Below, piece after piece: positions 41,255-54,295 of a stretch of 64,000 bases of DNA. This DNA is from Mycobacterium dioxanotrophicus. Lineage in GTDB: Bacteria > Actinomycetota > Actinomycetes > Mycobacteriales > Mycobacteriaceae. The translations under genes were made by a program, and so were the position numbers. The notes below the pieces were generated by a model, which worked only from the letters and a program-made list of their open reading frames with translations, had not been told where the DNA came from and did not search any database. Within the stretch, counting starts at the first letter, position 1, and each line of letters starts with the position of its first letter. The stretch lies in assembly GCF_002157835.1 (NCBI RefSeq), contig NZ_CP020809.1, positions 6,696,001-6,760,000 on the forward strand, given 5' to 3'.

Positions 41255-44200
41255 GTGAGTACGCTTCCATCGGTGGAACTGGAGGTTTTGGGACCTCTCC
41301 AGGTCCGGAAGGACGGTGCGCCCGTCGTCATACCGGGCGCAAAGCCGCGCGCGATACTCACGATGCTCGGGCTGCACGGTGGTTCGGTCGTCCCCGCCAC
41401 GACGCTGGTCGAGTTGCTGTGGGGCGATGCCCCACCACGCACCGCCGCCAAAGCCCTGCAGACCCACATCTCGTCGTTGCGGCATGCTCTCGGCGACGGA
41501 TTCGTCTTGACCGAGGGAACCGGATGGCGCCTGAGCACCACCGAAGTTGATGCCTCACGCTACAAGCGAGCAGTCGGGCTCGGTCGTGCCGCAGCAGCCG
41601 CCGGTGACGCCAGCGGTGCAGTGGCTCGGTTCGGCGAGGCTGTGGCCTTGTGGCGGGGAGTTCCCGAGCTTCCCGACGGCCGGCGCGGAGCGTCCGAGAA
41701 GACGCGCTGGGTCGAGGGCCACGCCGCACTGATCGAAGATCGGGCCGACGCGCTGCTGATGACTGGCAGAGCGGCGGAAATCATCGGTGAGCTTGAGGCC
41801 TCGGTGGCGGACGCACCGCTGCGCGAAAGACGTTGGGGCCAGCTGATGCTCGCCCTGTACCGTGCCGGCCGGCAGGGTGAGGCGCTGGGCGCGTACCGAC
41901 GCGCCCGCACGCTGCTGGCCGATGAGTTGGGAATAGATCCCGGACCCGAGCTTCGACGCCTCGAGGCCGCGATCGTCGCGCAGGACGACACACTGGACCT
42001 CCCTGCGGCGCAACATGTTCCCGCTGTAACACGCGCGGTGACCTTCCTGCTCACCGACATCGAGGGGTCGACCTCCGCCTGGGAGGCAGATGCCGACGCC
42101 ATGGCCGTCGCGCTCGCTCGCCACGACGAGATCGTCGAGCAGGTCATCACATCCCGAGGCGGTCGCCTGATCAAGACGCGCGGGGAGGGCGATGCGACAT
42201 TCTCGGTCTTCGACCGCCCTTCGGCAGCCGCCGCTGCCGCCATCGAGCTGCAAGACGCGATCCTCCAGGAGCCGTGGGCGCTGGCCGAACCCATGCGTAT
42301 CCGAATCGCCTTGCACACCGGCGAGGCAGAACTCCGCGACGGCGACTATTTCGGTCGATCGGTCAACCGCGCCGCCCGGCTACGGTCCCTGGCCACGGGT
42401 GGGCAGACCCTGTGCTCGGGTGCGACCGCCGAACTCGTGATCGATTCCCTCTCCGACGACGTTGCACTCGTGGATCTGGGGACGCGACAACTGAAGAATC
42501 TGGCACGCCCCGAGCACGTTTACGAACTTCGCCTCGACACCAACGACAACGCATCGCCCCCAAGCACTCCCCCGATCGCGCGACCCGAATTGCCCGCCGT
42601 ACTCACCGGATCCGGCCCCTTCGTCGGGCGCGAGTCTGAGCTCAGTCATCTCACGTCCGCCTGGCAAGCCACGCTCAGCGGCGGCACCCGAGCAGTGCTG
42701 ATCGCCGGCGAGCCTGGTGTCGGCAAGACTCGGCTGGCCGGCGAATGGTCCTCTCGGGCATACGAGAAAGGTGCTGTCGTGCTGTACGGCCGGTGCGATG
42801 AGGACCTCGGCGCGCCGTACCAACCATTCGCGGAATCGCTACGCACTCTTGTGCCGTGCGTTGGGGGCAGCCGGTTGCGGGCCATGCGCGGCGTCGAAGC
42901 GCTGCTGCCCTTGATTCCTGGATTGCTCGATGCGTTGCCCGACCTTGTCGCACCCGCCCGAGCCGACCCGGACACCGAACGCTACGCGCTGTTCGACGCT
43001 GTCGTCGCGCTCCTGGAAGTCGCGTCTGCGACCGCACCCGTCGTGCTGGTTCTCGACGACCTGCACTGGGCCGCCAAATCCACCTTGCTGCTGCTGCGAC
43101 ACGTCCTGCGGTTCGGCGACCACGCCCGCGTACAGCTCGTCGGCACATACCGCAGCACAGATCTCGACCGGTCGCACCCGCTCGCGGCCATGCTTGCCGA
43201 CCTCCATCGCGCCGGCACAGCCGACCGCGTTCAGCTCAGCGGCCTGGGCACCGACGACGTGACCGCGTACGTCGCCGAAGCCGGTTACGACGACGAAGAA
43301 CTGGGCCGGGCTTTGGCGTCGGTCACCGGCGGCAATCCGTTCTTTCTCATCGAAGCGCTGCGGCACGTCGGTGAAAGCGGTGGCCGCTGGGACTCGAGCA
43401 CCCTGCCCCAGGGGGTGCGAGAAGCCGTGAGCCGCAGGCTCTCCCGGCTTTCCGCGGAGACCAACAAGGCGCTTTCGGCAGCCGCGGTTGTTGGCAGCCG
43501 GTTTGCCGTGGACCTGGTCGAGCGGGTGCTTGACCAGGAGCTCGTCGATGCGTTCGACGAAGCGTGCACGGCGGGCATCATCATCGAAGAGCCTGGCGGC
43601 TGCTACCGGTTCAATCACGCCATCGTCCGGCAGTCACTGTTGGCCGAGCTGGCGTCCGTGCGGCGCATGCGACTGCACCAGCGCATCGCCACCACACTGG
43701 AGAACACGCCCGGCATCGACGACGAGCGGTTGGCCGAACTGGCGCATCATTACTTCGAATGTGCCTGGGCCGGAAATGCAGTCAAGGCCGTCGAATACTG
43801 CCGACGTGCAGCCGACCAAGCGATGACCCGACTTGCCTACGAAGGCGCCGCAGAACTCTATGACCAAGCCCTGCATGCACTCGAAGAACTCGACGACGAG
43901 TTGCCCGACCGCGACGACCAACGCGCCGAACTACTGGTCGCACGGTGCGAAGCACTGTTGGCCTCGGGTGACGTCGCGTCGGCGGCAAGCGCCGTCGCCC
44001 AACTCCAGGAAGCGACCCAGCATTCAGCACGCCTCGCGGCGTGGGCGACGTGCTTCGACGGACAACTCTCGATGCTAATCCATCCCGAGCGACTCGACGA
44101 TCTCGAACTCGCGTTGGACAAAGCCGCCCAGCGATTGGCCGAATTGAACGATGGCGCAGGGGAAGCCAAGGCACACACCGTGCGCGCGCAATGTCTCGCC

Positions 44201-47200
44201 CGGCTCGGTCGGATCGCCGACTGCGAAACCGCCTTGGACCATGCGCTTTCCGCTGCCCGCCGCGCACGAGAACACCGCAGGGTGAACAACGTGTTGGCCG
44301 GAGCACCCCTTGCGGCTCTCTGGGGACCCAATCCGGTTCCGCGCGCAGGCGGGCGCTGCCTTGATGTGGTGCGCCTGTTGCGAATCACCGCCGATTCGCC
44401 TGCGGTGGAGGCGACGTCGACGCGGTGTCAGGCCGTACTGGAGGCATATCGCGGCCGGGCCGGTGCCGCACGACGCATGATCGACTCGGCCCGCCGAACG
44501 GTCACCGGACTTGGTTTGCGACATGGGCTCCTCGAGGTCGAGCACTTCGCCGGCATCGTCGAGCTCATTCTCGACGATCCGGACGCGGCCGAACAGCATT
44601 TGCGTCTGGCTTACAACGGCTTTCGCCGGATGGGCCTTGACGCCGATACAGCCGAGACGGCCGCCCTGTTGGGGCGCGCGTGCATGCTCCTGAGCCGCGA
44701 CGACGAAGCCGACGAACTATGCGCCGAGAGTGAGCGCCTCGCAGGCCATGCACTGAAGGCCTCGATTGCGTGGCGCGTCCTCAAGGCACAGCTGCTGTCA
44801 CGAGGCAAAGATCACGCTGAGGCACGGCGGCTCGCCGAGGAGGCTGTGGCCCTGGCCGAGCGCACCGACGCGCTGGTCGATCACGGCGATGCATGTTTGG
44901 TGCTCGCAATAGTGCTGGGTGCCGCAGGCGATCCCTCCGGGATGCAGTCCGCTGCCGAAGGAGCTGCAGCCCTGTACGAGCAGAAGGAGGCTGTAGCCCT
45001 TGTCGAGAAGGCACGTCGCCTTGTCGGCGAGAGCGTCCGGACCACTACGCCGGCGCTACCTGAGCCAGCGAGCGGCGAGCTCGATAGCTCATGTGTGCGA
45101 GCAGGCGAGCGCGTGTTGGCGGCTGTCGACCGAGGGGCGTGGGCCGAATTCGAGCAACTGTTCGCAGCTGCGGCCACTGCAGAAAGTTGTCGCAAGATCG
45201 TCGGTTTCGCGCCGGTCGACATGCCGTCTGACTGGGTGCACCAGAACAGACTCAACCTCGAGACCGGCGGCATGCGGGTCACCGCGACGGTGATCGCTGT
45301 TCGAGGGGAGCGCCTTGCCCTTTCACGATTGAGAGTGGGCACCGCCGACATGAGCGCTGGGGCACCCGAGGACGAGCTTCTCCAGATATATGGCATCGAC
45401 GACGCCGGCCGAATCGCTCTGCAGATATGGTTCGACCTCGACGACTTCGATGCTGCCATCGCGGAACTGGACGCTCGTTACCTTGCCGGGGAAGCCGCCC
45501 CGCACGCGCACACGTGGTCCGTCATCGCTGACGCCTATGTCACTCTCAATCGGCGCGAGCTTCCCGCGGTGACGCCGGACTGGGTGGACATCGATCACCG
45601 ACAGGTGCTCACGGTCGACACGGGCGAATTGGGAGTGTCGCTCAACGCATTGTGGGACATCACGTCGCAAGCCACCATCTATGTCGAAGCAGTACATCGA
45701 CTCACTGAAATCGGCGCAGTCACAACTCACGTGTCATCAGCGACCTCGAACGAAGGGTTCGACGCCGAATGGCGAGACATCGCCTTGTTGACGGTCGATG
45801 GCGACCGGATGAGTCGCGCTGAAGCTTTCGGCGAGGCGGATCTGGCCCTCGCGGTCGCAAAACTAGAAGAGCTCAGCGCCCCGAGGGCGCGACTGGAAAA
45901 CGCGGCAACTCGTGCGTACGAGCGCATGAAGGACTGCTACTCCAGCGGCAACTGGGCCGCACTGACCGAGGTACTAGCTGAGGGCATATCCAATGACGAC
46001 CGTCGCCTGGTGGTCAACGCGGGTGTCCAACGTGGGCGTGATGCCGTGATCAGCGAGATATCTGGCATCGCCGGGGTTGGAGTAACGACTTGGACGGCGG
46101 ACACTATCGCGGTCCGTGGCGATCGCATCGTTCTCAATCGTGCACGAGCATCGAGCGGCGAACTACCGGAGGCGTTCCACACCGATGTGCTCGACGTGGT
46201 CGAAACCGACGCCGACGGACAAGTTGTGGCACGCGTCGTTTTCGATCCCGACGACATCGACGCGGCTCTCGCCGAACTCGACGCCCGCTACCTTGCTGGT
46301 GAGGCGGCGCCGTTCGCGCGGACCTGGTCGGTAATCGTGGCTGCATACGCCGCATTCAACCGCCGCGAGACTGCCCCGACGACACCTGGCTGGGTGAACA
46401 TCGACAACCGTCGAGGAGCAGGTTTCCAGCCTGGCGACATGATCAGTTATATCCAAGCCGCATGGGATGACTCACCTGACACCAAGATCCACATCGTGGC
46501 GGTGCACCGGTTGACCGACCACGGCGCAGTGGTCACCCATGTCGCGCAAGGGGTCTCGCAGGACGGCTTCCACGCCGAGTGGAAGGACACCCACATTCTG
46601 CTGGTCGACGGCGAAATGGTCAGCCGCTGTGAACTATTCGACGAGGCAGACCTCGACGCTGCGCTGGCCCGGTTCGAGGAGCTGCACCCGACGGCCGGGC
46701 GTCTACATAACACCGCAAGCGACATGTACGAGCGCTTCCACAAGTGTTTCGCTGCACCGGATCTGGCCGCGATCGAGGCGATGCTGGCCGAGAGCTTCTA
46801 CGGTGACGATCGCCGGCACCTCGTAGGCTCCGGAATTCGGATTGGTCGGGATGCCGCACTTCAGGACGCCTGCGCGATCGCCGGCCTCGGCATCAGGGTC
46901 GCCGCGGCGACGGTCATCGCGACGCGGGGTGAGCGCCTCATGCTCAGGCGCTCGCGTTACGTGGGGCAACCGTCCGCCGCGATTGACGTCTACGTGCTCG
47001 AAGTCGTCGAGCTGGATACCGACGAGCGAATCGCCGCGGTGGTCACCTTTGATCCCGACGGCATCGAGGCCGCCCTAGCCGAGCTCGATGCGCGCTATCT
47101 CGCCGGCGAAGGCGCCGCCCACGCGCGCACCTGGTCGGCCATCACGGCGGGCTACGCCGCGTTCAACAGGCATGAGCTGCCGGCGACCACGCTCGATTGG

Positions 47201-47506
47201 GAGAACGTCGACCGCAGGCGCGCGATCGCCTTCGCTCCTGGCGAGCAGACCTCTTACATCCAAGCCACCTGGGATGTCACACCCGGCGCCAGGGCCCATG
47301 CCGAAACCATCCATCGCCTGAACAAGTGCGGTGCGCTCGTCACACAGGCGGTGCACGGGACGTCGCCGGAGGGCTTCGACGCCGAATGGCGTGAGATCGC
47401 GCTCCTCACGCTCGCCGGCGACCTGATCAACCGCTGCGAACTGTTCGACGAGGCCGACCTCGCCGCTGCTTTGGCACGGTTCGAGGAGCTCACATCGGCG
47501 GGTTGA
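41255..47506 (+). CDS. Giant SARP/BTAD - class III nucleotidyl cyclase - STAND ATPase regulator with C-terminal repeats
   Basis: The 2,083-residue protein has, in order: a SARP-type winged helix (about 5-95; LEVLGPLQVRKDGAPVVI) and BTAD (about 100-245); a class III cyclase domain (about 260-430) with TFLLTDIEGST (metal Asp268), GEGDATFSVF (Asp313) and SVNRAARL (Asn371/Arg375), so catalytic residues appear intact; a STAND/AAA NTPase with Walker A GEPGVGKT (485-492) and Walker B LVLDDLHWA (Asp601/602); helical TPR-like repeats; and three ~267-residue C-terminal repeats (about 1283-2083), each with AELDARYLAGE-A. The BTAD-cyclase-ATPase layout is known in mycobacteria; the repeated, possibly NTF2-like tail is unusual. 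It is intact, with no frameshift. The LLM gene starts two bases after its stop. Confidence 0.88.
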   Translation: MSTLPSVELEVLGPLQVRKDGAPVVIPGAKPRAILTMLGLHGGSVVPATTLVELLWGDAPPRTAAKALQTHISSLRHALGDGFVLTEGTGWRLSTTEVDASRYKRAVGLGRAAAAAGDASGAVARFGEAVALWRGVPELPDGRRGASEKTRWVEGHAALIEDRADALLMTGRAAEIIGELEASVADAPLRERRWGQLMLALYRAGRQGEALGAYRRARTLLADELGIDPGPELRRLEAAIVAQDDTLDLPAAQHVPAVTRAVTFLLTDIEGSTSAWEADADAMAVALARHDEIVEQVITSRGGRLIKTRGEGDATFSVFDRPSAAAAAAIELQDAILQEPWALAEPMRIRIALHTGEAELRDGDYFGRSVNRAARLRSLATGGQTLCSGATAELVIDSLSDDVALVDLGTRQLKNLARPEHVYELRLDTNDNASPPSTPPIARPELPAVLTGSGPFVGRESELSHLTSAWQATLSGGTRAVLIAGEPGVGKTRLAGEWSSRAYEKGAVVLYGRCDEDLGAPYQPFAESLRTLVPCVGGSRLRAMRGVEALLPLIPGLLDALPDLVAPARADPDTERYALFDAVVALLEVASATAPVVLVLDDLHWAAKSTLLLLRHVLRFGDHARVQLVGTYRSTDLDRSHPLAAMLADLHRAGTADRVQLSGLGTDDVTAYVAEAGYDDEELGRALASVTGGNPFFLIEALRHVGESGGRWDSSTLPQGVREAVSRRLSRLSAETNKALSAAAVVGSRFAVDLVERVLDQELVDAFDEACTAGIIIEEPGGCYRFNHAIVRQSLLAELASVRRMRLHQRIATTLENTPGIDDERLAELAHHYFECAWAGNAVKAVEYCRRAADQAMTRLAYEGAAELYDQALHALEELDDELPDRDDQRAELLVARCEALLASGDVASAASAVAQLQEATQHSARLAAWATCFDGQLSMLIHPERLDDLELALDKAAQRLAELNDGAGEAKAHTVRAQCLARLGRIADCETALDHALSAARRAREHRRVNNVLAGAPLAALWGPNPVPRAGGRCLDVVRLLRITADSPAVEATSTRCQAVLEAYRGRAGAARRMIDSARRTVTGLGLRHGLLEVEHFAGIVELILDDPDAAEQHLRLAYNGFRRMGLDADTAETAALLGRACMLLSRDDEADELCAESERLAGHALKASIAWRVLKAQLLSRGKDHAEARRLAEEAVALAERTDALVDHGDACLVLAIVLGAAGDPSGMQSAAEGAAALYEQKEAVALVEKARRLVGESVRTTTPALPEPASGELDSSCVRAGERVLAAVDRGAWAEFEQLFAAAATAESCRKIVGFAPVDMPSDWVHQNRLNLETGGMRVTATVIAVRGERLALSRLRVGTADMSAGAPEDELLQIYGIDDAGRIALQIWFDLDDFDAAIAELDARYLAGEAAPHAHTWSVIADAYVTLNRRELPAVTPDWVDIDHRQVLTVDTGELGVSLNALWDITSQATIYVEAVHRLTEIGAVTTHVSSATSNEGFDAEWRDIALLTVDGDRMSRAEAFGEADLALAVAKLEELSAPRARLENAATRAYERMKDCYSSGNWAALTEVLAEGISNDDRRLVVNAGVQRGRDAVISEISGIAGVGVTTWTADTIAVRGDRIVLNRARASSGELPEAFHTDVLDVVETDADGQVVARVVFDPDDIDAALAELDARYLAGEAAPFARTWSVIVAAYAAFNRRETAPTTPGWVNIDNRRGAGFQPGDMISYIQAAWDDSPDTKIHIVAVHRLTDHGAVVTHVAQGVSQDGFHAEWKDTHILLVDGEMVSRCELFDEADLDAALARFEELHPTAGRLHNTASDMYERFHKCFAAPDLAAIEAMLAESFYGDDRRHLVGSGIRIGRDAALQDACAIAGLGIRVAAATVIATRGERLMLRRSRYVGQPSAAIDVYVLEVVELDTDERIAAVVTFDPDGIEAALAELDARYLAGEGAAHARTWSAITAGYAAFNRHELPATTLDWENVDRRRAIAFAPGEQTSYIQATWDVTPGARAHAETIHRLNKCGALVTQAVHGTSPEGFDAEWREIALLTLAGDLINRCELFDEADLAAALARFEELTSAG
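45101..47503 (+). repeat. Three ~800-bp coding repeats at the 3' end of the giant regulator
   Basis: Three units of about 267 codons, starting near 45101, 45902 and 46709, each encode the sequence theme VIA-RG-R--L-R, FD-DDIDAALAELDARYLAG, ARTWSVI-AAYAAFNRRE, and FDAEW-DIALLTVDGD. Each unit itself seems to be made of two similar halves that read like SnoaL/NTF2-type folds. Protein similarity is clear; DNA similarity is moderate, so the duplication is old. Confidence 0.75.
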
Positions 47507-47507
47507 G

Positions 47508-48458
47508 ATGCCCGATACGCTGGCGCCCATGGACTTCCGTGTGTTCGTCGAACCCCAGCAAGGCGCTACGTACTCCGATCAGCTCGCTGTCGCCCGAGCG
47601 GCCGAAGCGCTGAACTACTCGGCATTCTTTCGGTCCGACCACTACCTGGCGATGAGCGGCGATGGCCTGCCCGGCCCGACTGATTCCTGGGTGACGCTGG
47701 CCGGTATCGCCCGCGAGACCTCGACCGTTCGCCTGGGCACCATGGTCACCTCGGCGACCTTCCGCCACCCGGGTCCATTGGCCATCTCCGTCGCACAGGT
47801 CGATGAAATGAGCGGTGGCCGTGTCGAATTGGGTATTGGAGCGGGCTGGTTCGAAGCCGAGCACCAGGCTTACGCCATCCCGTTCCCGCCGTTGGGTGAA
47901 CGGTTCGACCGGCTCACCGAACAGCTGCGGATCATCACCGGCATGTGGGACACCCCGGTCGGGGACAAATTCGACTTCGACGGCAAGCACTACACCGTCG
48001 TCGACTCACCGGCCCTGCCCAAGCCCACGCAGTCGCATCCGCCGATCATCATCGGAGGCGGCGGCCCCAAGCGCACGCCTGCGCTGGCCGCGGAATTCGC
48101 CGCCGAGTTCAACATCCCGTTCGTCCCCCTCGACGTCCTCAAGGCGCAGTTCGCCCGGGTCGCCGCCGCGGTTGCTGCCGCCGGGAGAGCCCCCGACTCG
48201 CTCACCTACTCCGCGGCGTTCGTGCTGTGTGCGGGACGCACCGACGCCGAGATCGCCAGCCGGGCGGCCGCCATCAACCGCGAAGTCGACGAGCTTCGCA
48301 GCAATTCGCCGCTGGTCGGGACACCCGCGGAGATCGTCGACAAGTTGGCTCCGTTCGTCGAAGCCGGCGTGCAGCGGGTCTACCTGCAGGTGCTCGATAT
48401 GGCCGATCTGGACCACGTCGAACTGTTCTCCACCGAGGTCATCCGCCAATTGAACTGA
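47508..48458 (+). CDS. LLM-class (luciferase-like) F420-dependent oxidoreductase
   Basis: The 316-residue TIM-barrel protein has the LLM signature elements FFRSDHYLAM, VRLGTMVTSATFRHPGPLAI and SGGRVELGIGAGWFEAEHQA; these are typical of mycobacterial F420-using members. It should catalyse hydride transfer to an unknown substrate. The start can be ATG 47508, two bases after the upstream stop, or ATG 47529 (MDFRVFVEP). Tight spacing implies coupling to the giant regulator. Confidence 0.88.
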   Translation: MPDTLAPMDFRVFVEPQQGATYSDQLAVARAAEALNYSAFFRSDHYLAMSGDGLPGPTDSWVTLAGIARETSTVRLGTMVTSATFRHPGPLAISVAQVDEMSGGRVELGIGAGWFEAEHQAYAIPFPPLGERFDRLTEQLRIITGMWDTPVGDKFDFDGKHYTVVDSPALPKPTQSHPPIIIGGGGPKRTPALAAEFAAEFNIPFVPLDVLKAQFARVAAAVAAAGRAPDSLTYSAAFVLCAGRTDAEIASRAAAINREVDELRSNSPLVGTPAEIVDKLAPFVEAGVQRVYLQVLDMADLDHVELFSTEVIRQLN

Positions 48459-51362: not shown

Positions 51363-51380
51363 ACTGACTGCTTAGTCAGT
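51363..51380. promoter_or_regulatory. TetR-regulon operator, copy 2
   Basis: ACTGACT-GCTT-AGTCAGT is a perfect palindrome with seven-base arms, ending 17 bp before the start codon of the amino-acid dehydrogenase. It differs from copy 1 at two positions, one of which restores symmetry. Confidence 0.8.
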
Positions 51381-51397
51381 CACTTTTGGGGAGTCAC

Positions 51398-52615
51398 ATG
51401 TCTCTTTCTTTGCCCAATGCCATCGGTTCGGTCGAGCAGGCCGACGACTCGCCGGTTTTCGAGGCGATCTGGACGGACCCGATCACCGGTGCCCGCGGAT
51501 ACCTCGTGCTCGACCGGCTCGTGCGCGGCATCAGCAGCGGCGGCCTGCGGATGCGCAAAGGCTGCTCGCTGGACGAGGTCCGCGGTTTGGCCCGGGGTAT
51601 GACCCTCAAGGAGGCCATCCACTACGAAGAGGCCGCGCGCTACGTTCCGCTGGGCGGCGCCAAGGGCGGTATCGACTTCGAACCTTCCGATCCGGCGGCA
51701 GAGTCGGTGCTCTACCGCTATCTGGAAGCGATGAAACCTCTCATCGAGCAACGCTGGACGATGGGCGAAGACTTCGGCGTTCGCCAGGAGACCGTTGACA
51801 AGTGCATTGCCCAGATCGGTCTCGGCAGCTCGGTGGACGCGGCCTACCAACACGTCGACGATCCCGAGCAGGCGCAAGCCCGGATGCGGGTCGCGTTCGG
51901 CACGGACGTCGACGGCGTCAAGCTCGATGAGCTGGTCGGCGGCTACGGCGTCGCCGAAGCGGCACTGGCTGCAATGGAATTGCACGACCTGCGCCCGGAT
52001 ACCGCCACGGCATTCATCCAGGGCTTCGGGTCGATGGGCGGGGCGACCGCCCGGTACCTGCAGCGGGCCGGCGTGCGGGTGGTGGGTATCGCCGACGTGC
52101 ACGGCGTCGTCGCCAACCCGAACGGACTCGACGTGGAGCGGCTGCTGCTGACGCGCACACCCAGCGGCGGGGTCAACCGCACCGAGCTGGGCCCCGACGA
52201 TGTCGAGCTGCCCGGTGACCGCTGGCTGTCGGTGGCCGCCGACGTGCTGGTCCCCGCCGCCACGTCCTACTGCATCAACGCCACCAACCAGCATGAGGTG
52301 ACGGCCAAACTGGTCGTCGAGGCGGCCAACATGCCTGTCACCCCGGAAGCCGAAACCGACATGGCCGCACGGGGAATCGTGATCGTTCCGGACTTCGTGG
52401 CCAATTCCGCGACCAACGCGTGGTGGTGGTGGGTCCTGTTCGGCGACATCGACGGAAGTGCCGAGCAGTCCTTCGCCAAGATCTCCACGCGGCTGCGCGA
52501 GTTGAGCAGCGAGATGTTCGCGTTGTCGGCCGCCGACAAGATCACCGCGCGCGCCGCCGCGTACACCATGGCCACCGACCGGCTCGCCAAGTTGACCACC
52601 GCGTACCCCAGTTAG
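51398..52615 (+). CDS. Glu/Leu/Phe/Val dehydrogenase
   Basis: The 405-residue NAD(P)-linked amino-acid dehydrogenase has the catalytic-lysine region VPLGGAKGGIDFEP, and a Rossmann fold with IQGFGSMGGATARYL. It oxidatively deaminates an L-amino acid to a 2-keto acid and ammonia. ATG 51398 is preceded by GGGGAG; the TTG at 51386 lies within it. With the operator 17 bp upstream and the keto-acid decarboxylase downstream, it fits an amino-acid degradation pathway. Mycobacterial housekeeping GDH is much larger. Confidence 0.9.
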   Translation: MSLSLPNAIGSVEQADDSPVFEAIWTDPITGARGYLVLDRLVRGISSGGLRMRKGCSLDEVRGLARGMTLKEAIHYEEAARYVPLGGAKGGIDFEPSDPAAESVLYRYLEAMKPLIEQRWTMGEDFGVRQETVDKCIAQIGLGSSVDAAYQHVDDPEQAQARMRVAFGTDVDGVKLDELVGGYGVAEAALAAMELHDLRPDTATAFIQGFGSMGGATARYLQRAGVRVVGIADVHGVVANPNGLDVERLLLTRTPSGGVNRTELGPDDVELPGDRWLSVAADVLVPAATSYCINATNQHEVTAKLVVEAANMPVTPEAETDMAARGIVIVPDFVANSATNAWWWWVLFGDIDGSAEQSFAKISTRLRELSSEMFALSAADKITARAAAYTMATDRLAKLTTAYPS

Positions 52616-52657
52616 CCTGCGGCCCAACGAGATCGCGCACGACCCCAGGAAGGACTC

Positions 52658-54295
52658 ATGAGCACCCACACCGAAGCCACGATCGCGCCCGCCGGACAGC
52701 GCCGCAGCGGCGGCCAAGCTCTGGTCGACGCGTTGACCCTCCACGGCGTCGACGTGGTCTTCGGGATCCCCGGAACGCACAATCTGCCGGTCTACGCCGC
52801 GCTGGGCGGCGCGGGTATCCGGCACGTTCTGGCACGCCACGAACAGGGTGCCGGCTACGCCGCCGACGGCTACGCCCGGGCCAGCGGCAAGCCAGGGGTG
52901 GTGATCACGACCACCGGACCGGCCATCCTCAACGCCGCAGCCGCGGCAGCCCAGGCCTATTCGGATTCCGTGCCCGTCCTGTTCATCGCGCCGGGGCTGC
53001 CGCTGCATCACCCGAGCCGGGGCAACGGGTACCTCCACGAGGTGAAAGACCAATTCCGCGCGATGGATTCGATCGTCGGGCATGCGCAACGCGTGACCAC
53101 TGTCGAAGAGATACCGTTGGCGGTCGCGCAGTGCTTTGCGGCGATGACGAGTACGCGTCCCCGGCCTGCGTACCTGGAAATCCCGCTGGACCTCCTCGAT
53201 CTCGAGGCCACCACGGCGCTGGTGCCGCCCTACGCCGGTCGCCCGGTTCGTCCGAATCCGGAGTCGATTCGAGCGGCGACGGAGCTTTTGGATGCCGCCG
53301 AGCACCCGTTGCTGATCGTCGGCGGCGGCGCATCGGGCGCGGCGAACGAAGTCCGTGATCTCGCCGAAGCACTGCAAGCGCCGGTGATCACGACTGCCAA
53401 CGGCAAAGGCGTTCTGCCCGAGACACATCCGTTGTCGCTGGGCGCCGGCGTCCATCACCCCACCGTCAAGGAGTTGGTGGCCGCGAGCGATGTGGTCGTG
53501 GCTGTCGGCACCGAGCTGGCCCCCTCGGACTGGTGGTGGGGACCAATAGCGCAGCAGAGCACCGTGATTCGCATCGACATCGATCCGACGGCCGCGGCGA
53601 CAAACATCTCCCCCGCCGTCGCTCTGGTCGGTGACGCCGCCGAGACCATCTCCTCGCTGCTCACGGGCCTCACCACCGCAGGGCGCACCGATGGTCGCGA
53701 ATCTTCCGCGCAGTGGCGGCGATTGCTCCGGCAGGACGCTGCACAAGAAGGCAGTGCCTACCTCGAGCTGTGTGCCGCGTTGGACGCCGCACTCGACGAC
53801 AGCGCCCTGATTGCCGCCGACAGCGCGATGGCCTGCTATTACGGCGCACTGTCGAACCTTCCGCTGCACCGGCCCCGGTCCTTTCTCTATCCGACCGGGG
53901 TGGGCACCCTGGGCTACGGTCTGCCGGCTGCGATCGGCGCGAAAATCGCAGCGCCACAACGCCAAGTGGTGGCGTTGCTCGGTGACGGCGGTGTCATGTT
54001 CACCATCGCCGAGCTCGCGGCTGCCGCGCAGGCCGGTTTGGCCATACCCGTCGTGATCGTCGACAACGGAGGCTACGGCGAGATCCGTAACGAGATGGCC
54101 GACCGCGGTGACACCGTGCACGCGGTTGATCTGGCCAGCCCCGACTTCGCCGCGCTGGCGCGATCCCTCGGCTGCCACGGGGTGTCCCTCGAGTCCGCCG
54201 CACTATTGGCCGATGCCGTCGGGGCCGCGCTGAACGCCGACCGACCCACGCTCATCCACCTACGCGTATCCGGTCGAGAAACTGAGTCCGCCTAA
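52658..54295 (+). CDS. ThDP-dependent 2-ketoacid decarboxylase, AruI/acetolactate-synthase-like
   Basis: The 545-residue protein has all three ThDP-enzyme domains. The cofactor-activating Glu lies in ARHEQGAGYAADGYARASGK, and the ThDP/Mg motif runs from GDGGVMFTIAELAAAAQAG to VDNGGYGE. Its N-terminal region resembles 5-guanidino-2-oxopentanoate decarboxylase (AruI) of the arginine transaminase pathway; the whole family also includes acetolactate synthase and benzoylformate decarboxylase. It follows the amino-acid dehydrogenase by 42 bp, so it would act on that enzyme's keto acid. Substrate assignment is tentative. Confidence 0.82.
   Translation: MSTHTEATIAPAGQRRSGGQALVDALTLHGVDVVFGIPGTHNLPVYAALGGAGIRHVLARHEQGAGYAADGYARASGKPGVVITTTGPAILNAAAAAAQAYSDSVPVLFIAPGLPLHHPSRGNGYLHEVKDQFRAMDSIVGHAQRVTTVEEIPLAVAQCFAAMTSTRPRPAYLEIPLDLLDLEATTALVPPYAGRPVRPNPESIRAATELLDAAEHPLLIVGGGASGAANEVRDLAEALQAPVITTANGKGVLPETHPLSLGAGVHHPTVKELVAASDVVVAVGTELAPSDWWWGPIAQQSTVIRIDIDPTAAATNISPAVALVGDAAETISSLLTGLTTAGRTDGRESSAQWRRLLRQDAAQEGSAYLELCAALDAALDDSALIAADSAMACYYGALSNLPLHRPRSFLYPTGVGTLGYGLPAAIGAKIAAPQRQVVALLGDGGVMFTIAELAAAAQAGLAIPVVIVDNGGYGEIRNEMADRGDTVHAVDLASPDFAALARSLGCHGVSLESAALLADAVGAALNADRPTLIHLRVSGRETESA

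Follow-up and report, generated by a model that had tools for sequence, protein, structure and literature searches.

Domain architecture of the regulator

The window, i.e., the whole 64,000-nucleotide stretch of Mycobacterium dioxanotrophicus DNA that was analysed, contains a long open reading frame whose product combines DNA-binding, cyclase and ATPase parts with a C-terminal tail of three repeats (Table 1). An F420-dependent LLM-class oxidoreductase gene begins 1 base past its stop codon; relatives of this gene, 84–97% identical, were found at 10 of the 109 loci searched, directly downstream every time, making it a possible co-transcribed partner of the regulator. Downstream genes vary between loci and define no single pathway, those identified being the F420 oxidoreductase, an S51 peptidase, ArsR/AHSA1 and thiolase-type proteins.

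Table 1. Features of the regulator gene and of the gene that follows it
Feature	Positions	Strand	Remarks
Whole open reading frame, 2083 aa, GTG start	41255..47506	+	SARP, class III cyclase, STAND ATPase, helical arm, six NTF2-like domains
OmpR-type winged helix-turn-helix, residues 30-81	41342..41497	+	Pfam PF00486, E 2.3e-6, exceeds cut-off
BTAD domain, residues 98-240	41546..41974	+	Pfam PF03704, E 7.6e-38
Class III nucleotide cyclase domain, residues 260-395 by Pfam	42032..42439	+	PF00211, E 1.5e-7, exceeds cut-off
STAND-type AAA ATPase core, residues 455-623	42617..43123	+	PF13191, E 5.7e-29
Helical, TPR-like arm, residues 624-1282	43124..45100	+	Weak TPR_12, 4 stretches, E 0.028, under cut-off; conserved among relatives
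Tail repeat 1, residues 1283-1550	45101..45904	+	Half A 45101-45490, half B 45491-45904, both NTF2-like
Hinge ...ELDARYLAGE..., residues 1388-1411	45416..45487	+	Site of 410-residue absence vs M. brisbanense
Tail repeat 2, residues 1551-1820	45905..46714	+	Half A 45905-46300, half B 46301-46714
Tail repeat 3, residues 1821-2083	46715..47503	+	Half A 46715-47107, half B 47108-47503
TIGR03560-family F420-dependent LLM-class oxidoreductase gene	47508..48458	+	NCBIfam TIGR03560, 295.9 bits, exceeds cut-off

The N-terminal part has the order that defines a SARP, a winged helix-turn-helix followed by a BTAD domain, both over their Pfam cut-offs, and the BTAD region matches the sequences of the solved structures EmbR (2fez, E 1e-34) and AfsR (8hvr, E 1.3e-31). 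The ATPase core carries a Walker A motif, GEPGVGKT, at residue 485 and a Walker B motif, DDLHW, at residue 601, as expected of a STAND ATPase with an AAA_16-type core.

For comparison, genes of relatives were collected by two regular expressions, one for the cyclase GST motif and one for the P-loop, both of which were required. This gave 83 distinct genes, five of which were cut by the end of the fetched stretch and dropped, leaving 78. DDLHW is kept in all 78 heads; most Walker A residues are part of the selecting expression. In the cyclase, aligned to Ma1120 and 3mr7, residues D268, K307, E311, D313, D364, N371 and R375 are the same in 78 of 78 heads, D268 being itself part of the selecting expression. 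Among these are K307, D364, N371 and R375, which we take to be the substrate residues (Lys, Asp) and transition-state residues (Asn, Arg). D268 is one metal-binding acid; the second position falls in GEGD, which aligns ambiguously, and either E311 or D313 could serve. The domain order read in the first-pass annotation (SARP/BTAD, cyclase, STAND ATPase, helical repeats, tail) was supported by Pfam signatures and structure prediction; the cyclase, read there as apparently active, has residues of the catalytic type.

Fold of the C-terminal repeats

The three repeats are 42–51% identical to one another in pairwise comparison of the three pieces, which resolved them; a self-BLAST of the whole tail as a single query reported only the identity match. 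Because the first structure-match list was filled by A-half ranges alone, the B half was predicted separately. The predicted fold shows the arrangement of the NTF2-like superfamily, alpha(-alpha)-beta-alpha-beta4-alpha with helices on a curved sheet, and the models support an assignment of both repeat halves as NTF2/ketosteroid-isomerase folds, i.e., six such domains in the tail. The suggestion that each repeat consists of two NTF2-like halves, for which structure prediction had been proposed as the check, held in the prediction and in fold comparison. We infer up to six small-molecule pockets on the window protein.

Distribution and copy number of the tail

Of 98 genomes sampled from the genus, 40 carry the tail, counting the genome that the window comes from, and full two-domain units number up to 14 per gene in reading frames uninterrupted by a contig end; two frames cut by a contig end hold at least 17 and at least 20. 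A tail unique to the window protein was rejected on the basis of these genomes and of database proteins. The earlier idea of a novel triple repeat is therefore unsupported in that form. Its novelty had been made to depend on the architecture not being already described as common: common it is in databases, where proteins already list the same Pfam combination, but no published description of the tail was found in open-licence PMC papers, and one may exist elsewhere.

Unit number varies even between genes with heads 96–97% identical, e.g., 9 vs. 7 and 10 vs. 6 (pairs with a zero-unit gene were left out of the bins in this comparison). The array is split over two reading frames at eight distinct loci, one of them (L051) by weak partial matches alone, suggesting that the gene is dispensable in some lineages; these split arrays are included among the 78 genes and account for the lowest unit numbers.

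Constant head and mosaic tail

The contrast between head and tail is invisible from any single sequence. Across the 78 genes, mean pairwise identity of the head is 0.73–0.91 in 20 of 21 full 60-residue bins and 0.61 in the remaining one, whereas the tail units inside one gene share a mean identity of 47% at the median. Homogenisation of repeats within a gene was considered and rejected, since the best within-gene pair reaches 53% at the median and 68% at most (75 of the 78 genes, with two or more full units). No exchange between paralogues of one genome was seen either, the best unit pairs being at most 57% identical in the four of seven paralogue pairs that yielded a comparison.

Between genes, halves of units were matched separately at 72% identity or more, in 148 units from 17 pairs of genes whose heads share at least 92% identity; the pairs share genes and hence are not independent. 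Both halves found their match in a single partner unit for 43 units and in different partner units for 8, while only one half matched in 49 and neither in 48. For 57 of the 148 units, then, either just one half has a match or each half matches a different unit, and what is exchanged seems to be one NTF2 domain.

Compared with M. brisbanense, the window protein is a short form with 410 residues fewer. The alignment offset jumps from +8 to +418 at the conserved ELDARYLAGE hinge; half A of repeat 1 resembles the lone first half of the M. brisbanense tail (83%), and half B of repeat 1 has no close counterpart there (best 62%). Whole-unit matching had suggested that repeat 2 alone has a counterpart in M. 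brisbanense, which was overturned by half-domain mapping, where five of the six window halves have counterparts at 75–86%.

Synonymous divergence is raised at the hinge columns (0.38 vs. 0.225 elsewhere, z 10.4), a pattern noticed in bins first and tested afterwards. A test of synonymous heterogeneity on seven hand-picked pairs with close heads was positive for the tail in all seven, with p from 0.041 to 6e-31 (L086/L119, with few changes, is unreliable), and for the head in three, namely the window gene with L069 (p 3.5e-17), L120/L127 (p 2e-11) and L053/L118 (p 0.002). The latter result means that recombination is not confined to the tail, and the test is weak evidence for a process acting on the tail only. 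Taken at the sequence level, these comparisons establish the tail as a fast-changing mosaic on a conserved head, in which single domains are apparently re-assorted and joined at conserved hinges.

Relation to known systems

The protein resembles AfsR and other large SARP regulators in its SARP part, which matches the solved AfsR and EmbR sequences, its STAND ATPase and its helical repeats; it differs in having a class III cyclase between SARP and ATPase and an NTF2 array after them. An AfsR orthologue was rejected on the NCBIfam AfsR equivalog score (151.4 bits against a cut-off of 1430) and on the interposed cyclase. The mclx proteins (Rv0386, Rv1358, Rv2488c), whose domain order we take to be cyclase-ATPase-LuxR, likewise join a class III cyclase to an ATPase and a DNA-binding output, but theirs is a C-terminal LuxR helix-turn-helix in place of the N-terminal SARP and NTF2 array seen here. 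The 14 Pfam families listed for the window protein down to an E of 1 include no LuxR/GerE match, and its NTF2-like C terminus sets it apart from the mclx group.

Also related in the C-terminal half are zinc-ribbon–class III cyclase–STAND–TPR proteins (L181, L182, L194, L195), which also carry NTF2/SnoaL arrays, detected by the unit profile at 10 to 113 bits per stretch and by Pfam SnoaL_2 over its cut-off in L181 and L182. Within the genus (two genomes), the helical arm of these proteins is 44–45% identical to that of the window protein; in a genome from another family the figure is 40%. TPR_12 exceeds its cut-off in L181; a zinc ribbon and another cyclase stand where the window protein has its SARP. 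Ketosteroid isomerase (KSI), Rv0760c, SnoaL2 and Lsd19/MonBI are single or paired enzymes or binders, about 5–20% identical among the matches listed, unlike the window protein, which chains six NTF2-like domains on a regulator, and its relatives, with up to about 40. A C-terminal NTF2/SnoaL domain on a transcription factor is also found in ECF41/ECF56 sigma factors (SigJ, SigG1), where its effect on factor activity is predicted or shown (PMC7730460); these factors have one such domain and neither ATPase, cyclase nor array.

Putative pocket faces, selection and alternative functions

In the A half, one face of the sheet is variable (mean column identity 0.165) and the opposite face conserved (0.58, p 7e-5). 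By register with KSI, a weak sequence match (E 0.2), the variable face is the one lining the KSI pocket; pocket-face and catalytic positions follow KSI residue numbering. The inferred pocket positions differ strongly among units and are conserved between orthologous units. We give even chances to the reading that the predicted domains form a sensor array with several pockets for small molecules, which licenses a STAND switch whose outputs are transcription and a cyclic nucleotide.

A rather unlikely alternative, though one with precedent, is that the chain works as a scaffold for proteins or peptides, or as an arm for oligomerisation, whose variable surfaces recruit different partners. NTF2 folds also work in these ways: the SnoaL_2 domain of ECF41/ECF56 contacts the sigma core (PMC7730460), and the fold-match list holds a CaMKII-association-type domain, 3h51. 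In addition, the predicted whole tail has a pTM of only 0.46, so that the domains may be beads with flexible placement. However, the sheet positions that vary most in the A half carry mainly hydrophobic or small residues and few charges, apart from columns 97 and 110, and it is the presumed pocket-lining face that varies while the opposite one is conserved, both of which speak against this alternative.

An immune-type role, in which an NLR-like STAND protein senses foreign (e.g., phage) molecules and answers via a cyclic nucleotide and transcription, is improbable. The constant STAND head with a diversifying sensor resembles the putative antigen sensors associated with NACHT anti-phage systems (PMC10907252) and conflict systems with hypervariable effectors (PMC7159879), and domain turnover is fast. 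Against this, no PADLOC family (systems described by 2023) reached E 0.01 or better, the output part is a SARP activator, not an effector that kills cells, and the identified downstream genes are not defence genes. Positive selection on the pocket face was looked for between orthologues and not found: in 44 independent orthologous unit pairs, selected at 75% identity or more, which biases dN/dS downward and leans against detection, dN/dS was 0.18 on the variable face, 0.15–0.18 on the A-half sheet faces and 0.25 overall, rather than above 1.

It is more doubtful still that the tail is nearly neutral slack, with repeats expanding, shrinking and drifting as little depends on them. The differing unit numbers behind near-identical heads and the split arrays fit such drift, as does the higher dN/dS of the tail units (0.25 pooled) than of the heads (0.06–0.15 in 11 of 12 pairs). 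Even so, the tail values lie far under 1, identity-biased as the pairs are, the fold and the A/B alternation are preserved, and most of the 78 genes have arrays that run for thousands of codons as open frames.

That the tail domains are enzymes of the ketosteroid-isomerase/SnoaL kind, making the protein a multi-enzyme fused to its own regulator, is very improbable: an Asp aligned with the KSI catalytic Asp is near-invariant in A halves (column 32, 0.95, in the weak-match register), as is one that B halves carry in a similar motif (column 167, 0.94), and two-domain NTF2 epoxide hydrolases are the top Foldseek matches, but column 97, which the same weak-match register pairs with the oxyanion Asp of KSI, is one of the most variable columns (0.10), the D-x-R-R motif may be conserved for structural reasons, and fusion to a SARP-STAND head would be unusual for an enzyme.

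Proposed mechanism and biological meaning

Returning to the sensor array, the gene would encode a large mycobacterial SARP-type STAND regulator with an evolvable chain of single NTF2-fold domains as its C-terminal sensor, in which A and B types alternate, six in all here; we rate this reading as likely as not. Each domain could hold a different, probably hydrophobic, small molecule, and ligand binding would relieve autoinhibition of the STAND core, which is under ATP control, and bring it into an active state, perhaps as an oligomer. The active core would free the SARP domain to switch on promoters, among them perhaps that of the neighbouring F420 oxidoreductase gene, and would also stimulate the cyclase. 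Domain swapping would re-tune the molecules sensed and leave the output untouched; relatives gain, lose and exchange pocket-shaped domains, probably with the effect of altering what the cell senses. More tentatively, the ligand repertoire may evolve by combinatorial shuffling, in which NTF2 pockets, up to about 40 per chain, are gained, lost or exchanged between species at conserved hinges under a near-unchanging output.

Single-chain bacterial regulators usually carry one sensor. Here, the sensor is an apparent array that is rebuilt domain by domain in relatives, while the DNA-binding, ATPase and cyclase parts change little, and what is unusual, judging from the sequences compared, is this constant head against a changing tail rather than the triple repeat. 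With heads that barely change across many species, it is possible to single out what the tail contributes, which raises the testable question of what the NTF2 domains bind and whether exchanging one alters what switches the regulator on. Should the pockets take up different molecules, a single protein would integrate many signals and could alter its input through recombination; in principle, bacteria would then have a counterpart of diversifying NLR-type receptors.

Domain architecture of the window protein

The first-pass annotation described a multidomain ORF with three tail repeats, and this is confirmed by Pfam domains above their cut-offs (see table) and by tail pieces 1283–1550, 1551–1820 and 1821–2083, which are 42–51% identical to one another (E 6.9e-57 to 1.6e-84). 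TPR and SnoaL matches in the same ORF scored below the Pfam cut-offs. As a query against the window's own genome, the tail matched a single place. Elsewhere in the window, a 932-codon open frame on the reverse strand (51380–54178) has no Pfam match; its make-up gives the impression of a spurious frame shadowing a gene on the other strand, not of a genuine protein.

Features of the window protein, its neighbour and the zinc-ribbon array proteins (L, locus of a relative; G, genome)
Feature	Position	Strand	Evidence
SARP-cyclase-STAND-NTF2 ORF, 2083 residues	41255-47506	+	
OmpR-type winged helix	residues 30-81 of the 2083-residue ORF		Pfam, above cut-off
BTAD	residues 98-240 of the 2083-residue ORF		Pfam, above cut-off
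Class III cyclase	residues 260-395 of the 2083-residue ORF		Pfam, above cut-off
AAA_16 ATPase	residues 455-623 of the 2083-residue ORF		Pfam, above cut-off
TIGR03560-type F420-dependent oxidoreductase gene	begins 1 base past the stop codon of the 41255-47506 ORF		
Zinc-ribbon array protein (G416)	L181:3411-8684		
Zinc-ribbon array protein (G092)	L182:3538-10884		
Zinc-ribbon array protein (G790)	L194		
Zinc-ribbon array protein (G011)	L195		

Among relatives, 83 distinct genes carry the cyclase and P-loop motifs, and the 78 ORFs not cut by the end of a fetched stretch form the counted set. K307, D364, N371 and R375 align with class III cyclase residues that we take to have substrate and transition-state roles; these four, E311, D313 and the Walker B motif are invariant across all 78 heads, while D268 and most P-loop residues served in gene selection, and their conservation is not independent evidence.

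Array length and neighbouring genes

The number of full units (two NTF2-like halves, A and B) per ORF was 0 (1 ORF), 1 (2), 2 (6), 3 (8), 4 (12), 5 (9), 6 (8), 7 (6), 8 (4), 9 (10), 10 (6), 11 (1), 12 (1), 13 (3) and 14 (1), split arrays being included among the lowest counts. At least 17 full units are present in L096, whose ORF is open at the end of the fetched stretch, and at least 20 in a 5552-aa ORF open at both ends (L102:1-16658). The earlier interpretation is thus partly supported: the SARP/BTAD, cyclase and ATPase order stands (Pfam), but a special triple repeat is not supported in that form, since relatives carry 0–14 units and at least 20 in L102. In 71 of the 78 genes a single A half stands ahead of the first full unit; the 7 exceptions include the window gene and its two nearest relatives. 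Split arrays occur at eight distinct loci (L048, L051, L056/L080, L059, L066/L098, L097, L117 and L134), where a second unit-bearing ORF adjoins the first (in L051 via weak partial matches only), which points to decay of the gene in some species. One mycobacterial genome holds two such genes, each with its own head, in tandem and nearly end to end (L138:1678-18119).

What lies downstream varies from gene to gene. In 56 of 77 genes (window left out), the stop is closely followed by the start of an ORF of 150 aa or more. The largest downstream group, a Peptidase_S51 protein (11 loci; Pfam match in both of the two scanned), belongs to another species group, where its gene stands in place of the F420 oxidoreductase and overlaps the end of the array gene (e.g., L031, L045, L053, L090, L133). 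Further array ORFs and the F420 oxidoreductase follow 8 genes each, and an ArsR/AHSA1 protein is found at 4 loci (one scanned). A ChsH2/thiolase-type protein at 3 loci (L084, L088, L101; one scanned) could point to lipid or sterol chemistry.

Distribution

The tail search returned 1117 proteins at E ≤0.001 among 7994 candidates scored; among the 120 matches listed, Mycobacterium accounts for many of those with a name, a few come from MAGs labelled otherwise, and many combine BTAD, cyclase, AAA and SnoaL labels. The tail was matched in 40 of 98 sampled genomes of the genus, the window's own counted (E 0.001), in 20 of 298 genomes of the order (E 1e-10), all within one of 76 genera, and, among 396 genomes of the phylum (E 1e-5), in 6 of the genus and 1 of another family. 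The head (E ≤1e-150) was found in 15 of 249 order genomes, every one in the window's genus. A named-species scan, from which entries for the window's own genome may be missing, retained 73 loci. Of these, 69 bear the titles Mycobacterium, Mycolicibacter or Mycolicibacterium, two are Mycobacteriaceae and two Actinomycetota MAGs; closest to window repeat 2 were M. aquaticum (89%), M. brisbanense (84%) and Mycobacterium sp. 852013-50091 (77%).

The NTF2-array theme extends beyond the SARP form. A second protein type, found in two other families of the phylum as well as in two genomes of the genus, joins a zinc ribbon to STAND, a helical arm, an NTF2 array and a class III cyclase that differs from the window protein's. 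No description of SARP-cyclase-STAND-NTF2 arrays was found in the open-licence PMC papers searched.

A constant head and a changing tail

Over the 21 full 60-residue bins that reach residue 1260, mean pairwise head identity is 0.73–0.91 in all but one (0.61); in the final, incomplete bin before the tail it drops to 0.37. Within the 75 genes with at least two units, median unit identity is 47% (mean) and 53% (best pair), with a best-pair maximum of 68%. The fraction of tail units that find a counterpart at ≥68% falls from 0.92 at head identities of 96–100% (4 gene pairs) to 0.35 at 92–96% (13 pairs), 0.13 at 88–92% (62 pairs) and a rounded 0.00 below 88% (2765 pairs). This low fraction arises partly because halves, rather than units, correspond: for 148 two-half units in 17 gene pairs with heads ≥92% identical (threshold 72%), both halves were matched in one partner unit for 43 and in different partner units for 8, one half only for 49, and neither for 48. 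Judged from these alignments, the exchanged module appears to behave as a single NTF2 domain, not as the 270-residue repeat.

The window and M. brisbanense genes have heads 89% identical and adjoining oxidoreductases 97% identical. Aligning their tails gives an offset of +8 as far as roughly residue 1387, of +418 from roughly residue 1412 and of +397 close to the end; therefore the window protein lacks 410 residues present in M. brisbanense, with the junction inside the conserved ELDARYLAGE hinge between tail halves, and a further difference of 21 residues accounts for the later shift. The A half of window repeat 1 is the counterpart of the lone first A half of M. brisbanense (83%), its B half has no close counterpart there (62%), and the remaining four halves have counterparts at 75–86%; M. 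aquaticum has counterparts for all six (80–96%).

In 44 independent orthologous unit pairs, chosen at ≥75% identity, synonymous differences per site reach 0.363, 0.381 and 0.398 in columns 121–130, 251–260 and 261–270. Combined, the hinge columns give 0.38 vs. 0.225 elsewhere (z 10.4), and the conserved non-hinge columns 31–40 (0.222) and 71–80 (0.218) are not elevated. The raised divergence is consistent with exchanges whose endpoints lie in the hinges; such exchanges would preserve reading frame and A/B order. Among direct repeats of at least 20 bases in the window tail, similarity does not exceed 80%, so recent slippage within the window copy is not indicated.

Putative pockets of the A half and a proposed model of function

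Across 479 units, A-half sheet positions alternate in conservation. The variable face (columns 76, 78, 80, 82, 93, 95, 97, 99, 108, 110 and 112) has a mean column identity of 0.165 vs. 0.58 for the opposite face (Mann–Whitney p 7e-5; faces were assigned from strand positions after the column values had been seen). Small or hydrophobic residues predominate there, and charge is scarce except at columns 97 and 110. In the orthologous units (≥75% identity), dN/dS is 0.18 for the variable face, 0.15 for the opposite face and 0.25 overall. A profile match to a mycobacterial ketosteroid isomerase, 6p3l (E 0.2, not significant alone), gives a register in which, on the isomerase numbering we assume, the variable face lines up with the steroid-pocket side of the enzyme and Asp 32 corresponds to its catalytic Asp. 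The simplest reading would be that units differ in their pockets and that a pocket, once formed, is retained.

The general view of large SARPs and STAND regulators is that they stay inactive until their sensor arm has been acted on by ligand and ATP. In the best-supported model, putative tail ligands would bind the sensor array and relieve the inactive hold, which would switch transcription and cyclase together. Rival accounts of the tail are a partner-binding scaffold (unlikely), an immune-type sensor (more doubtful), near-neutral slack (improbable) and a multi-enzyme (very improbable). What is notable in this otherwise known kind of large SARP/STAND regulator with a cyclase is a putative sensor tail rebuilt domain by domain.
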